The notes beneath the pieces are model-generated. The model did no database searches, had not been told where the DNA came from, and saw only the letters and a program-made list of their open reading frames with translations. This document shows positions 37,599 through 64,000 of a DNA stretch of 64,000 bases, piece after piece. Made by a program: the position numbers and the translations under genes. The stretch comes from Blattabacterium cuenoti (GTDB lineage Bacteria; Bacteroidota; Bacteroidia; Flavobacteriales; Blattabacteriaceae), in NCBI RefSeq assembly GCF_014252055.1, contig NZ_CP059208.1, positions 248,001-312,000 on the forward strand, in the 5' to 3' direction. Every line of letters starts with the position of its first letter. Position 1 is the stretch's first letter.

Positions 37599-38996
37599 AT
37601 GAGTATTGGAATGAAAGTAAAAAAAGAAAAAGTTTTACTGATAGCTTTTCTAAGTTTTTTAGTATGTGCATTAATTCATTTCTATAGGTCCTTTTTAGGA
37701 TTAGATAAATCTACTCTTTGCATATTAAGATGTTCTGTCATATCTCTTTTTATATTGTATGCTTTTCTAAAAAAAGATTTAACTACTTGGATCTTAATTT
37801 CTATAATCATAGGTATAGAAATAGGGTTAGACTTGCCTAAAATAGCTGTAGAACTGAGATTTTTATCTCAAATTTTCTTGAGATTAATAAAGACTATTAT
37901 TGCTCCAATACTATTTTCAACTTTAGTTGTTGGAATAGCAAGTCATTCTAACATAAAACAATTAGGTAGTATGGGATGGAAATCCCTATTATATTTTGAA
38001 ATAGTAACAACCTTAGCTTTATTTATTGGACTTATTGCTATTAATATTTCTCAAGCTGGAGTAGGAATTGTTATGCCTTCTAATATTACAAAACAACAAT
38101 TGCCAATTGTAGAAAGCAGATCTTGGCAAGATACTATTCTTCATGTTTTTCCTGAGAATTTTATTAAATCTATATATCATGGGGATGTCCTCCCTATAGT
38201 AGTTTTTTCTGTAATATTTGGGATATCTATGGTCTTTCTAGAAGAAAAAAAACGAAACCCCATATTGATATTTGCAGAAAGTTTATCAGAAATAATGTTT
38301 AAGTTTACTAAAATAATCATGTATTTCGCTCCTATAGGAGTAGGATCTGCAATAGCTTATACTGTTGGTCATATGGGTTTAGATATTTTATATAACCTTT
38401 TTCAACTATTATTAACTCTTTATATTGCTTTATTTGCTTTTTTGATAGTAGTTTTATTTCCTATACTTTTGTGGATTAAAATTCCTTTAAAAGGTTTTGT
38501 GAAAGCATTGACTGAACCAGTTTCATTAGCATTTGCTACTACAAGTTCTGAGTCTGCTCTTCCTTTACTTATGGAAAATTTAGAAAAATTAGGTGTCCCT
38601 AGAAAAATTATTGCTTTTGTTATTCCTACAGGATACAGTTTTAACTTAGATGGAACTACTTTATATCTTTCTTTAGCTACAGTTTTTGTAGCACAAGCAT
38701 CTGGAATTCCTCTAAGTTTTAGTCAACAAATATTTATAGGTTTGACTTTAATATTAACTAGTAAAGGAGTAGCTGGTGTCCCTAGAGCTTCTCTCGTCAT
38801 TCTTTTAGCTACTGTTGCATCTTTTGGGTTACCTACTTGGCCTATATTAGCTATTATTGGAATAGATGAATTAATGGATATGGCTCGTACTACTGTAAAT
38901 GTTATAGGAAATGGATTAGCAAGTTGTGTTATTGCTCGTTCAGAAGGAGAATTTGATGATAAGAAAATGTTAGATTATATAAAAAATGATTTTTGA
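37599..38996 (+). CDS. Dicarboxylate/amino acid:cation symporter (DAACS, GltP/DctA type)
   Basis: The 465-residue membrane protein has the DAACS hallmarks: FATTSSESALPLLMENLEKLGVPRKI (the serine-rich re-entrant loop) and GYSFNLDGTTLYLSLATVF, with about eight helices and a C-terminal IIGIDELMDMARTTVNVIGN. The family imports C4-dicarboxylates, glutamate or aspartate with protons or sodium; the substrate cannot be told. An extra N-terminal hydrophobic stretch of about 60 residues precedes the usual start. Its stop overlaps the apparent TTG start of mvaD. Confidence 0.9.
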   Translation: MSIGMKVKKEKVLLIAFLSFLVCALIHFYRSFLGLDKSTLCILRCSVISLFILYAFLKKDLTTWILISIIIGIEIGLDLPKIAVELRFLSQIFLRLIKTIIAPILFSTLVVGIASHSNIKQLGSMGWKSLLYFEIVTTLALFIGLIAINISQAGVGIVMPSNITKQQLPIVESRSWQDTILHVFPENFIKSIYHGDVLPIVVFSVIFGISMVFLEEKKRNPILIFAESLSEIMFKFTKIIMYFAPIGVGSAIAYTVGHMGLDILYNLFQLLLTLYIALFAFLIVVLFPILLWIKIPLKGFVKALTEPVSLAFATTSSESALPLLMENLEKLGVPRKIIAFVIPTGYSFNLDGTTLYLSLATVFVAQASGIPLSFSQQIFIGLTLILTSKGVAGVPRASLVILLATVASFGLPTWPILAIIGIDELMDMARTTVNVIGNGLASCVIARSEGEFDDKKMLDYIKNDF

Positions 38997-40056
38997 TAAT
39001 TGTGAATTTTGAAAAAAAATATTTAGAAACAATATTTCCTAATGGAGTAATCACAAAAAAAAGTTATTCGAACATTGCTCTGATTAAATATTGGGGAAAA
39101 TATACTGATAGAATACAAATTCCATTAAATTCTTCTATTAGTTATTCTCTAAGTAAAGTATATACAAAAACACGGTTAATATATAGTATAAAGAAAAAAA
39201 AAATTTTTCGATAAAAATATTCCTAGATGGAAAAGAAGAAACAAGTTTTCTTCCAAAAACTTTAAAATTTTTTCATAGAGCTTCATTTTATTGTTCTTAT
39301 CTTAGATATTTTGATTTCGTTATTGAAACTTACAACAATTTTCCACATAGTAGTGGAATTGCATCATCTGCCTCTTCAATGAGTGCCTTAGCTTTATGTA
39401 TTATGGAAATGGAAAAAAAATTTTACTCTTCCTTAAAAGAAGAAAGTTTTTTTTTAAGAAAAGCTTCTTTTTTATCAAGATTAGGTTCAGGAAGCGCTTG
39501 CAGATCTATCTATCCTGGTTTAGTTGTTTGGGGGTATCATAAATCGATAAAAGGAAGTAATAATTTTTATGCTATTCCATATCCATATAAAATACATCCT
39601 ATATTTCAAAATATTTCAGATACTATATTAATAGTGGATAAAAATCCTAAAAAAATATTAAGTTCAAAAGGACATAAGTTAATGAATAACCATCCTTATG
39701 TTAAGGATAGAATTAAAAGTGCTAACAAGAATATGATAAAACTTATTTCTATATTAAAAACAGGAGACTTCCGTAAATTTGGAGAATTAATAGAACATGA
39801 GGCATTAACTCTTCATGCAATGATCATGACTTCTAGACCATATTTCTTATGGATAAAACCAAATACACTTCACATTATTTACACTATATGGGAATTCAGA
39901 ATTCAAAGCAAAAAAAATATCTATTTTACGCTAGATGCAGGTGCTAACGTTCATCTTCTATACCCCATTCAAGAAAGAAAATATATCATAAAATGGATAT
40001 ATAATAATCTTTTTTCTTATTGTGAAAAAATCATAGAAAGTTTTGTTCATAAATGA
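38993..40056 (+). pseudogene. mvaD: Diphosphomevalonate decarboxylase, frameshifted in an A10 tract (possibly rescued by slippage)
   Basis: The mevalonate-pathway enzyme makes isopentenyl diphosphate from diphosphomevalonate. The first part (to 39214) reads SYSNIALIKYWGKYTDRIQIPLN and ends early; the rest, in the frame one base back, continues with IFLDGKEETSFLPKTLKFF, the phosphate loop PHSSGIASSASSMSALALC, SRLGSGSACRSIYPG and LDAGANVHLLYP. All conserved parts are present. The break falls in A10 at 39194-39203; eleven A residues, or a -1 ribosomal slip, would give one product of about 354 residues. There is no in-frame ATG near the start: TTG 38993 (overlapping the symporter stop) or GTG 39002 is used. 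Confidence 0.85.
39194..39203 (+). repeat. A10 tract at the mvaD frameshift
   Basis: Ten consecutive A residues where the two halves of mvaD fall out of frame. With eleven, the codons read Lys-Lys-Lys-Lys-Asn-Phe-Ser-Ile and join the conserved parts smoothly. Confidence 0.9.
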
Positions 40057-41399: not shown

Positions 41400-41452
41400 A
41401 GATGTATAAATAATTAATTTGAAATGATTACAAATCTAAATAAATTTATGAT

Positions 41453-41481
41453 CAAATTTATTTATCTATAAAAATCTGCAA
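41453..41481 (-). promoter_or_regulatory. Candidate promoter of the aspartate aminotransferase gene
   Basis: On the minus strand TTG (41481-41479) and TAAATTTG (41460-41453) are 18 bases apart, matching TTG-N17-23-TAnnTTTG. A second -7-like TAGATTTG lies at 41438-41431. The -33 element is just upstream of the rsmG ATG at 41484 on the other strand. Confidence 0.4.
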
Positions 41482-41483
41482 AA

Positions 41484-55155: not shown

Positions 55156-55995
55156 TTAGGATCTAATTCTTCCATTCTTATATTCTCCCATAATAGATAA
55201 TTTATGAAGACATGTAATTTTTTGTATCCGTTGTTTCATTTTTTCATAATCTTTTATATTGTTAAATATTACATCTACATAAAACGAATATTCCCAAGGT
55301 CTTTGTATTATGGGAATAGATTGTATTTTAGTCATATTGATACCAATACTTGATATAATACTCAATATCTTAGAAAGGCTACCAGTAGTATGTAATATTT
55401 TAAATCTTAGAGAGGCTTTATTAAAAAAATCATTTTCATTTTGTTCATAACAATTTTTAATAATAAAAAATCTGGTAAAATTGCTTTCGATAGTTTGTAT
55501 GTTTTTATAAATAATTTCCAAACCATATTCTTTAGCTGCATTTTCAGAAGCTATTGCTGCTAAACCTCTTTTTTTATATATAGATATATGTTTAGCAGCG
55601 GAAGCAGTATCAAAGTATTCTGATATTTTTATCCAAGAATGAGCATCTATAAATGATTCACATTGTAATAACGCCATAGGATGAGAATAAATCTCTTTTA
55701 TATCTTCTATATCCTGTCCAGGATAAGCCATTAAATGATGTTTAATTGGCATATAAACCTCTCCAATAATCTTTAAATTATATTCTGATAAAAGACTATA
55801 ATTAGTCAATATCGTTCCAGCTATGGTATTTTCTATAGCCATAACTCCGATATCTACATTTGATTTAGCTACAGAAAAAGCTAATTTTCTAAAAGAAGAA
55901 CATTCCATTAACTTATATTTACATCCTACGAAATAAGTAGAAACAGCCGCATGATGGAAACACCCCTTCACACCTTGTATCGCTATTCTTTTCAT
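55156..55995 (-). CDS. pheA: Prephenate dehydratase
   Basis: PheA turns prephenate into phenylpyruvate. The catalytic domain shows IQGVKGCFHHAA, MAIENTIAGTILTNYSLL, SHPMALLQCESFI and IESNFTRFFII with the TRF motif. An ACT domain follows (about 195-272) with TGSLSKILSIISSIGINMTKIQS and WEYSFYVD, suggesting possible phenylalanine feedback; the usual ESRP reads QSIP, so sensitivity is uncertain. It is the first gene of the aromatic group and has a good promoter match upstream. Confidence 0.93.
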   Translation of the reverse strand: MKRIAIQGVKGCFHHAAVSTYFVGCKYKLMECSSFRKLAFSVAKSNVDIGVMAIENTIAGTILTNYSLLSEYNLKIIGEVYMPIKHHLMAYPGQDIEDIKEIYSHPMALLQCESFIDAHSWIKISEYFDTASAAKHISIYKKRGLAAIASENAAKEYGLEIIYKNIQTIESNFTRFFIIKNCYEQNENDFFNKASLRFKILHTTGSLSKILSIISSIGINMTKIQSIPIIQRPWEYSFYVDVIFNNIKDYEKMKQRIQKITCLHKLSIMGEYKNGRIRS

Positions 55996-56055
55996 GAAAC
56001 TAGAATTAAATTAATGTAAAAAGTTTCATTATCAAGCGGAAAAATAAATTCCGAG

Positions 56056-56086
56056 CAAATATAAAAAATTATTCTAATTAATGCAA
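56056..56086 (-). promoter_or_regulatory. Promoter of the pheA operon (TTG-N20-TATATTTG)
   Basis: On the minus strand TTG (56086-56084) and TATATTTG (56063-56056) are 20 bases apart, an exact match to the Bacteroidota primary promoter. A start near 56049 would leave a leader of about 54 bases before pheA. Confidence 0.55.
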
Positions 56087-56090
56087 TAAA

Positions 56091-56106
56091 CATCCATATT
56101 TGGATG
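56091..56106. promoter_or_regulatory. Perfect 6-base-pair inverted repeat between the pheA and mntH promoters
   Basis: CATCCA and TGGATG flank TATT. It lies between the outward-facing -33 elements of pheA and mntH. It may be an operator for either or may be chance. Confidence 0.35.
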
Positions 56107-56108
56107 GA

Positions 56109-56152
56109 TTGAACAAAAAAATTAAAACGGTTAACTTTATGTTTATGTTAAC
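56109..56152 (+). promoter_or_regulatory. Candidate promoter and operator of mntH
   Basis: TTG (56109-56111) is followed after 20 bases by TAACTTTA (56132-56139), seven of eight with the -7 consensus. Two GTTAAC hexamers, 56130-56135 and 56147-56152, straddle the -7 element and likely start site, an arrangement suited to a repressor such as MntR or Fur. The regulator is not known. Confidence 0.35.
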
Positions 56153-56205
56153 GTTATTTATTATACAGAATATATACGTTATACAATACGAACTAGATTT
56201 TTTCT

Positions 56206-57555
56206 ATGATACAAAAAAAAAGATCTCCTCTTATAGGATGGAGGAAAGAGAATAAACATCCTACCCTTTCGGAGGTTTTCTCTTCTATTTATGTACCTCA
56301 AAAAAAAGGAATGTGGAAAAAATTTTTTGCTTTTACAGGACCAGGATTCCTAATTGCTGTAGGATACATGGATCCTGGAAATTGGGCTACTGATATTTCT
56401 GGAGGTTCTAAATTTGGTTATATGCTGTTATCTGTTATTTTTATATCCAATTTATTTGCTATCATTTTACAACATTTAGCTCTAAAATTAGGAATTGTTT
56501 GTGAAAGAGATTTAGCACAAGCATGTAGAGATAACTATCCCCCATTTATTAGTTTTATATTATGGATTTTATGTGAGATAGCTATTGCTGCTTGTGATTT
56601 AGCAGAAATTATCGGTTGTTCGTTAGCATTAAAACTTCTTTGTAATATTCCTATTACATGGGGGGTATTAATTACCACTATAGATGTTTTAATTATTTTA
56701 TTTTTTCAATCTAAAGGATTTAGATATATTGAAAGTTTAGTTGCTACCCTAATATTTACAATTTTAATTTGTTTTAGTTTTGAAATTATAAGTTCAAAAC
56801 CAGAAATTATTCCTATATTAAAAGGAATAATCCCTAATCCTAGGATCATTCAAGATCCTCATGCTTTTTATATATCAATTGGAATATTAGGAGCAACAGT
56901 CATGCCTCACAATCTTTATTTACATTCAAGTATCATACAAACTAGAGATTATCCACGTACTATTGAAGGAAAAAAAATGGCTATAAAATATGCTACAATA
57001 GATAGCACTTTATCTCTATCTTTAGCATTTTTTATAAATGCAGCTATATTGATTGTATCTGCAGCTACTTTTCATAAATATGGACATACAGAAGTAGCAG
57101 ACATTATGGATGCGCATAAGCTTTTAACTCCAATATTAGGATCTAGTTTTGCTGGAGTTTTTTTTGCATTAGCTTTACTAGCTTCAGGACAAAATTCTAC
57201 ATTAACTGGAACATTAGCTGGACAAATAGTAATGGAAGGATTTCTAAATATAAGATTAAAACCTTGGATAAGGAGACTTATTACAAGATTAATCGCTATC
57301 GTACCAGCTATGATCACAGCCATTTTATATGGAGAAAAAGGGACGGCAGAATTACTAATCATTAGTCAAATAATACTATCCATACAGTTGATATTTGCTA
57401 TCATTCCATTAGTAAATTTTACAGGAGATTCAGAAAAAATGGGAATTTTTGTAAATGGCCAAATTTTAAAAATACTATCCTGGGTTATTACTTCTCTAAT
57501 AATACTACTAAATTCATTTTTATTATACAATACTTTCTATTTAGGATGGAGTTGA
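56206..57555 (+). CDS. mntH: Nramp-family divalent metal transporter
   Basis: MntH imports Mn2+ (and Fe2+) with protons. The 449-residue product has about eleven helices; TM1 has VGYMDPGNWATDISGGSKFGY with the DPGN metal motif and TM6 has ATVMPHNLYLHSSI with MPH. LASGQNSTLTGTLAGQIVMEGFL is the family consensus transport signature. The N-terminal 40 residues are cytosolic and basic. It is a single rightward gene after the longest spacer of the window and ends in a 19-base overlap with the convergent rplI. Confidence 0.94.
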   Translation: MIQKKRSPLIGWRKENKHPTLSEVFSSIYVPQKKGMWKKFFAFTGPGFLIAVGYMDPGNWATDISGGSKFGYMLLSVIFISNLFAIILQHLALKLGIVCERDLAQACRDNYPPFISFILWILCEIAIAACDLAEIIGCSLALKLLCNIPITWGVLITTIDVLIILFFQSKGFRYIESLVATLIFTILICFSFEIISSKPEIIPILKGIIPNPRIIQDPHAFYISIGILGATVMPHNLYLHSSIIQTRDYPRTIEGKKMAIKYATIDSTLSLSLAFFINAAILIVSAATFHKYGHTEVADIMDAHKLLTPILGSSFAGVFFALALLASGQNSTLTGTLAGQIVMEGFLNIRLKPWIRRLITRLIAIVPAMITAILYGEKGTAELLIISQIILSIQLIFAIIPLVNFTGDSEKMGIFVNGQILKILSWVITSLIILLNSFLLYNTFYLGWS

Positions 57556-58688: not shown

Positions 58689-58730
58689 ATAAATCTATAT
58701 TTTTTATGTTGTTTTTTCAAAAAATATATT

Positions 58731-62683: not shown

Positions 62684-62690
62684 ATTTATA

Positions 62691-64000
62691 ATGAAAATGA
62701 AGAAAAAAATAATAACAGAAAAAATAAATCAACTTAGAAAAGAATTAGCTAATCATAATTATAAATATTATGTATTAGATCATCCAGATATATCTGATTT
62801 TATTTTCGATAAAAAATTAAGAGAATTATCTTTTTTAGAAAAAAAATATCCTGAATTATATGATCATAACTCTCCAAGTATTAAAATCGGAGCAGAAATT
62901 CATAAAATAGATTATTCTTCTATTTACTATCATAAATATAAAATGTATTCTCTTAAAAATGTTTACTCCAAAAAAGAATTAATAATTTGGTTAAATAAAA
63001 TAAATAAATCAATAAATTTTAATACATCCTTTGTATGTGAACCAAAATATGATGGAGTTTCTATAAGTTTGATTTATCAAAACGGTAGTTTAACCCATGC
63101 AGTTACTCGTGGAGACGGAGAAAAAGGAGAAAATGTCACAAAAAATGTACAAACGATAAAATCTATCCCATTAAAATTAATAGGAAAAAATAACTATCCT
63201 TCGTACCTTGAAATACGTGGTGAAATATTTTTATCTGTAAAAAATTTATTAAAAATAAATGAAAGACGTATAAAAATAGGAAAAACTCCTTATAATAATC
63301 CAAGAAACACTGCTAGTGGGACTCTTAAAATTCATGATTACAAAGAAGTAGCTAAAAGAGAATTAGATTGTGTAGCATTTAATGCTTCAGGAAAAAATTT
63401 ACCTTTCCATACCCAATATGAAGCTTTAAAAGCTATTAATAATTGGGGTTTTATGACTCCAGAAACAACACGTTTTTGTAAAAATGTAGACGATGTTATC
63501 CACTTTATAGACTTTTGGGAAGTTTATAGAAAAAAAAGACCTTATCAAACAGATGGAATAGTTATAAAAGTAAATGAATATCAAAAACAATATGTTTTAG
63601 GTTATACCAACAAATATCCACGTTGGGCCATAGCTTATAAATTCAAACAAAAACCATCAGAAACAAAATTATTAAACCTTACTTTTCAAGTAGGAAGAAC
63701 AGGAATTATTACTCCTGTAGCTAATGTTGCCCCTGTATCAATTTCTGGAACAATCGTAAAAAGAGTAACGCTTTATAATAATAACTTCATCAAAAAAAAT
63801 GGAATTTATTACGGAGATACTCTTTTCTTGGAAAAAGGAGGTGATATTATTCCAAAAATGACAAAAATAAATTTTGAAAAAAGATCAAATAAGGCTTCTC
63901 CCATATTTTTCTTGAAAAAATGTCCATCATGTAATGATACTTTAATAAAAATAAATGAATTATACTACTGTATTAATAAAAATTGCCCTTCTAAAAGAAT
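62691..64000 (+). CDS. ligA: NAD-dependent DNA ligase, N-terminal part (runs off the window)
   Basis: The open frame continues to the last base, giving about 436 residues of a protein that is usually near 670. LigA seals nicks using NAD. The Ia domain for NMN binding (NYKYYVLDHPDISD), the adenylation lysine Lys119 in CEPKYDGVSISL, RGDGEKGENVT, EIRGEIF, NNPRNTASGTLK and the OB fold (QVGRTGIITPVANVAPV) are seen; the four-cysteine zinc finger is intact at CPSC and CINKNC. A second ATG two codons on (62697) may be the start. Confidence 0.96.
   Translation, partial: MKMKKKIITEKINQLRKELANHNYKYYVLDHPDISDFIFDKKLRELSFLEKKYPELYDHNSPSIKIGAEIHKIDYSSIYYHKYKMYSLKNVYSKKELIIWLNKINKSINFNTSFVCEPKYDGVSISLIYQNGSLTHAVTRGDGEKGENVTKNVQTIKSIPLKLIGKNNYPSYLEIRGEIFLSVKNLLKINERRIKIGKTPYNNPRNTASGTLKIHDYKEVAKRELDCVAFNASGKNLPFHTQYEALKAINNWGFMTPETTRFCKNVDDVIHFIDFWEVYRKKRPYQTDGIVIKVNEYQKQYVLGYTNKYPRWAIAYKFKQKPSETKLLNLTFQVGRTGIITPVANVAPVSISGTIVKRVTLYNNNFIKKNGIYYGDTLFLEKGGDIIPKMTKINFEKRSNKASPIFFLKKCPSCNDTLIKINELYYCINKNCPSKR

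Follow-up and report, generated by a model that had tools for sequence, protein, structure and literature searches.

In this study, we address the question of what the spacer between the divergent genes pheA and mntH holds in Blattabacterium, an obligate endosymbiont of cockroaches: an operator through which manganese uptake is controlled, or the promoters of the two genes. The spacer lies in a 64,000-base stretch of Blattabacterium cuenoti DNA (contig NZ_CP059208.1), referred to here as the window, and a preliminary description of this stretch had proposed that it contains a kept, perhaps metal-responsive operator. In the literature searched, nothing was recognisable as work on mntH or its promoters in Blattabacterium, and no paper contained both 'Blattabacterium' and 'mntH'. 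The reading that we favour, with a probability of roughly 0.62, is that the spacer consists of compact divergent promoters, that on the mntH side the context of the -7 box is fixed without a consistent -33 element, and that an ancestral metal control has been lost.

The genome that holds the window has 622,023 bases and encodes an MntH with 91% identity to that of Blattabacterium cuenoti ECTONUhan; the pheA product matches the NCBIfam models for prephenate dehydratase with scores under their cut-offs (Table 1). We found mntH in 42 of the 49 genomes of the genus, a count that includes one genome (G038) in which the gene is broken by stops, and in all 42 pheA lies divergently upstream of it, in one case (G016) as a remnant. 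This remnant, at about 1030-1318 of locus L083, retains residues 1-32, 163-185 and 255-279 only, and its promoter sequence and mntH remain. The 42 pheA-mntH spacers are 122 to 329 bases long with an A+T content of 71 to 89%. They fail to align over their whole length, and two blocks are kept, the pheA promoter and a core ahead of mntH. In the window the spacer covers positions 55996-56205, and the preliminary description was correct in its length of 210 bases; that it is the longest spacer of the window is uncertain, because a gap of 479 bases (62684-63162) exceeds it when only ORFs with support from 8 or more of 15 relatives are taken as its borders. A search of that gap gave no RNA family and no tRNA.

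Table 1. Genes and sequence elements at the pheA-mntH locus (positions in the window)
Feature	Position	Strand	Details
pheA, prephenate dehydratase	55156-55995	-	Pfam PF00800 (PDT domain), E 8.5e-57; ACT domain weak
pheA promoter	56056-56086	-	-33 TTG (56084-56086), N20, -7 TATATTTG (56056-56063)
CATCCA-TATT-TGGATG inverted repeat	56091-56106		CATCCA at 56091, TGGATG at 56101; in 1/42 spacers
Possible mntH -33 TTG, weakly supported	56109-56111	+	20 bases before TAACTTTA (56132-56139)
mntH promoter core AAAACGGTTAACTTTAT	56124-56140	+	Holds first GTTAAC and -7-like box TAACTTTA (56132-56139)
Alternative mntH -7 box TATGTTTA	56138-56145	+	Overlaps core; TAnnTTT there in 32/37 genomes
Second GTTAAC	56147-56152	+	Outside any kept element; pair in 1/42 spacers
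mntH, Nramp-family Mn2+ transporter	56206-57555	+	Pfam PF01566, E 5.9e-127; NCBIfam NF001923 MntH, 605 bits (cut-off 430)

Sigma-A promoters of Bacteroidota carry a -33 TTG and a -7 TAnnTTTG, as in motifs SM1-3 described for Flavobacterium psychrophilum (PMC9723704), and the pheA promoter agrees with these motifs in both sequence and spacing. The pattern TTG-N18..21-TAnnTTTG is present on the pheA side of 33 of the 42 orthologous spacers, as against 2.2% of shuffled spacers, and the earlier claim of a consensus pheA promoter, which lies on the minus strand, is thereby borne out. It is likely that sigma-A RNA polymerase reads pheA through this ordinary type of promoter.

On the mntH side, a 17-base core, AAAACRRTTAACTTTAT, is found with at most two mismatches in 37 of the 42 spacers. 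The form in the window recurs exactly in 29 spacers, with one mismatch in seven and with two in one, and five genomes have an mntH reading frame without the core. The bases that flank it vary among the spacers. A column-by-column comparison of 38 spacers, namely the 37 with the core and L089 (four mismatches), revealed no variation in AAAAC, in the C of TTAAC or in the TTT that follows it; the variable columns are mainly two G/A (R) positions. At the same threshold of two mismatches, the core was absent from all 174 non-orthologous spacers, and no second match was found in this genome. Near matches that recur in many genomes, around 240 kb and in the neighbourhood of lon, had made a regulon conceivable; however, the three loci that we opened (L142, L128 and L114) are coding, and we take the reading frames concerned to be malic enzyme and lon.

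The core is lost together with mntH. None of the seven genomes without mntH has it, and the best match within 700 bases of pheA shows four to six mismatches, although the pheA promoter block is still readable in three of these genomes (L217, L218 and L219). Conversely, the core is exact in G038 (locus L106) although mntH (1481-2781) is broken there by several stops, for which reason the loss of the gene in this genome looks recent. Taken together, these findings indicate that the core belongs to mntH and not to pheA. A PheA tree, from which L083 was left out as its pheA is a remnant, suggests several losses of mntH, with four changes of which two are forced by well-supported branches; many forks of the tree are weak.

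Which part of this region would act as the mntH promoter? TAnnTTT is intact in all 37 spacers with the core, and its distance from the gene is appropriate for a promoter, features that the mntH side shares with the sigma-A promoters of Bacteroidota. The end of the core lies 22-45 bases before most mntH starts and about 24 bases before them in many genomes, which fits a short leader such as those reported for Flavobacterium psychrophilum, where the median is 24 bases (PMC9723704). Unlike those sigma-A promoters, however, the mntH box ends in A and not in the final G of TAnnTTTG (37 of 37), it has no consistent -33 TTG, and a fixed AAAACRR stands upstream of it. Only 8 of the 37 genomes have a TTG that precedes the -7 box by 17-23 bases (spacings are counted to TAACTTTA; counts to AACTTTAT run one base longer). 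The preliminary description had spoken of a near-consensus mntH promoter, and this is apt for the TAnnTTT and for the TTG found here at a spacing of 20, but neither the final G (0 of 37) nor a consistent -33 element (8 of 37) is there. In 32 of the 37 genomes there is a further kept box, TATRTTTT, which could be the true mntH -7 element.

We infer an mntH start site for which sigma-A polymerase would use TAACTTTA as the -7 box, the overlapping TATRTTTT being the less likely choice. In extended -10 promoters, a contact beside the box supplies a missing one, and by analogy the fixed AAAACRRT just upstream of the mntH box most likely compensates, via close contacts, for a -33 element that is absent or has drifted. 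Since a TTG is found in only 8 of the 37 genomes, AAAACRRT probably supplies the missing contact. With repressor and operator gone, mntH would probably be expressed steadily and without manganese-dependent repression. Two other ways of transcribing the gene were considered and rejected: control by an ECF sigma factor, as the genome has a single sigma-70-type factor (one sigma-70 region-2 protein), and control by sigma-54, for which one gene is present, but by eye the core is unlike the -24/-12 GG-N10-GC elements of sigma-54 promoters.

The conservation of the core has to be seen against that of other promoters of the genus. For comparison, we scored the 14 window spacers of at least 40 bases against 15 of the 48 relatives, selected so as to be well spread. 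For the pheA-mntH spacer, the best 17-mer is found with at most one mismatch in 11 of the 15 relatives; four control spacers equal or exceed this (8/8, 14/15, 13/15, the last of these coding, and 12/15), and the two next are at 10/15. The divergent spacer at 41400-41483 holds an overlapping pair of consensus promoters that is nearly letter-for-letter the same in 15 relatives, its plus-strand promoter reading TTTG-N19-TAAATTTG in most of them, and is a good reference for the genus. The promoter in the spacer at 58689-58730, ahead of a presumably rpsF-like gene, has a -7 box, TAGATTTA, that likewise ends in A and whose context is kept. The mntH core is thus truly conserved, but no more so than other promoters of the window; its conservation is what a good promoter of this genus typically shows and is not exceptional.

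The sequence of the core nevertheless contains more than a bare -7 box needs, and this counts against a plain promoter. In spacers of such high A+T content two C positions are invariant: one that the sigma-A consensus leaves open and one that is not part of the box. Together with the lack of the final G and with the five core-less genomes, these positions leave room for another binding protein. A reading that we consider unlikely is that the core is bound by a retained transcription factor, of a family other than DtxR and Fur, that activates or represses mntH and has no other clear target, TATRTTTT then being the -7 element. Such a site would explain why the C positions and the AAAAC beyond the -7 box do not vary and why there is no consistent -33, and the uniqueness of the core in this genome is what a dedicated operator would lead one to expect. 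A protein of the HTH_AsnC type is present once in the genome, barely above the cut-off. However, the core is asymmetric, unlike most operators, and its GTTAAC is broken in some genomes; neither a Crp-type HTH nor a DtxR or Fur protein was found in this genome in a search of few families (DtxR, Fur, Crp-type HTH, AsnC-type HTH and sigma factors); and other window promoters show the same degree of conservation. Less probable again is that AAAACRRTTAACTTTAT is the single-target site of an unrecognised regulator, of neither the DtxR nor the Fur type, that controls manganese uptake. If this were true, manganese uptake would still be controlled in a symbiont without the standard metal sensors.

Slightly more doubtful still is the idea that the core is transcribed as part of the mntH leader and affects how the mRNA is translated or how stable it is. 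Its distance of about 24 bases from the start codon in many genomes would suit such a role, but no manganese riboswitch or other Rfam element was matched by covariance models in the window, in which only two tRNAs reached the gathering score. The possible pairing of AAAAC with RTTTT is without covariation as judged by eye, the C being fixed and its partner A or G.

Compact promoters, which we continue to prefer, also agree with what has become of metal control in the genus. The DtxR/MntR family (PF02742) is absent from all 49 Blattabacterium genomes and was detected in 11 of 14 control genomes; the Fur family (PF01475) is likewise absent from the 49 and was detected in 13 of the 14 controls. 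Outside the genus, a DtxR-family gene occurs in the available DNA of 20 of 59 mntH loci; in several of them, that of the symbiont L005 included, it is the immediate divergent neighbour of mntH. When one mismatch is allowed, the operator motif TTAGNNTNNNCTAA, of the TTAG..CTAA type, is found in 33 of 53 mntH upstream regions outside the genus, six of the 59 loci being omitted as they lack the upstream DNA, versus none of the 42 Blattabacterium spacers; as the motif was picked by eye from the relatives' loci, its frequency outside the genus is no independent test. L005, the nearest symbiont relative, has it only at two mismatches, as expected by chance. The DtxR/MntR operators of Bacteroidota relatives thus stand before the same gene and at a similar position as the Blattabacterium core, whereas Blattabacterium has neither the motif nor the regulator. 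This comparison suggests that the genus has lost the ancestral control of mntH, in which a DtxR/MntR repressor acted on an operator of the TTAG..CTAA type. One might suppose that the core is a relic of the ancestral MntR operator retained by chance, as its distance from mntH is about that of the operator in many relatives outside the genus; this is improbable, however, because near-perfect retention where the rest of the spacer is unalignable, and loss once mntH is gone, point to a present function.

The symmetries from which a kept operator had been proposed fare differently from the core. Of the paired GTTAAC hexamers said to lie over the mntH -7 element, both exist and the first, at 56130, is inside the kept core, but only the spacer of the window has two copies; 33 of the 42 have one and eight have none. 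The CATCCA/TGGATG repeat is present and perfect, yet it too is confined to the window among the 42 spacers, and the nearest relative, L066, has neither the pair nor the repeat. A kept element therefore exists and includes the first GTTAAC, while the hexamer pair and the repeat are not conserved in relatives. Even the single hexamer is lost in three core-bearing loci (L075, L083 and L090) through a change that spares TAnnTTT, from which we conclude that the palindrome is not what selection sees. The amount of symmetry, from which an operator had been suggested, is not unusual overall, as the spacer has four perfect 6-bp inverted repeats (loop 3-20) and 2000 dinucleotide shuffles averaged 5.0 (P = 0.64). 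Arms with at least three G/C (P = 0.035) and a repeated palindrome containing G (P = 0.007) were rarer in the shuffles, in tests framed after the features had been seen. The pair and the repeat are probably chance symmetries of this one genome. That MntR or Fur binds either or both of them, making the spacer metal-responsive, is very improbable: the repeats exist and those bearing G/C are rarer in shuffles, but non-conservation (each in 1 of 42 spacers, and missing even in L066) together with the lack of DtxR and Fur in 49 genomes rules such an operator out unless its regulator is private to the strain.

If compact promoters are indeed what the spacer holds, the locus shows clearly how promoter elements decay and persist when a genome is reduced: a regulator and its operator vanish and the transporter and its core promoter stay, the core vanishing in turn with the loss of the transporter. 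A further suggestion is that in Blattabacterium a -7 box in a fixed context may suffice even where no -33 is consistently present. Short functional blocks in the decaying spacers of an obligate symbiont have likewise been described for the reduced genomes of Buchnera (Degnan et al., 2011; PMC3164680), although Buchnera belongs to another phylum and the blocks described there are Shine-Dalgarno sequences, terminators, sigma-32 sites and sRNAs.

Elsewhere in the window, mvaD (diphosphomevalonate decarboxylase, 38993-40056) is split by a frameshift near an A-run at about 39194-39203, and TIGR01240 matches its 3' part with a score under the cut-off. The two parts share one frame in 12 of 15 relatives, the exceptions being G008, G040 and G043.
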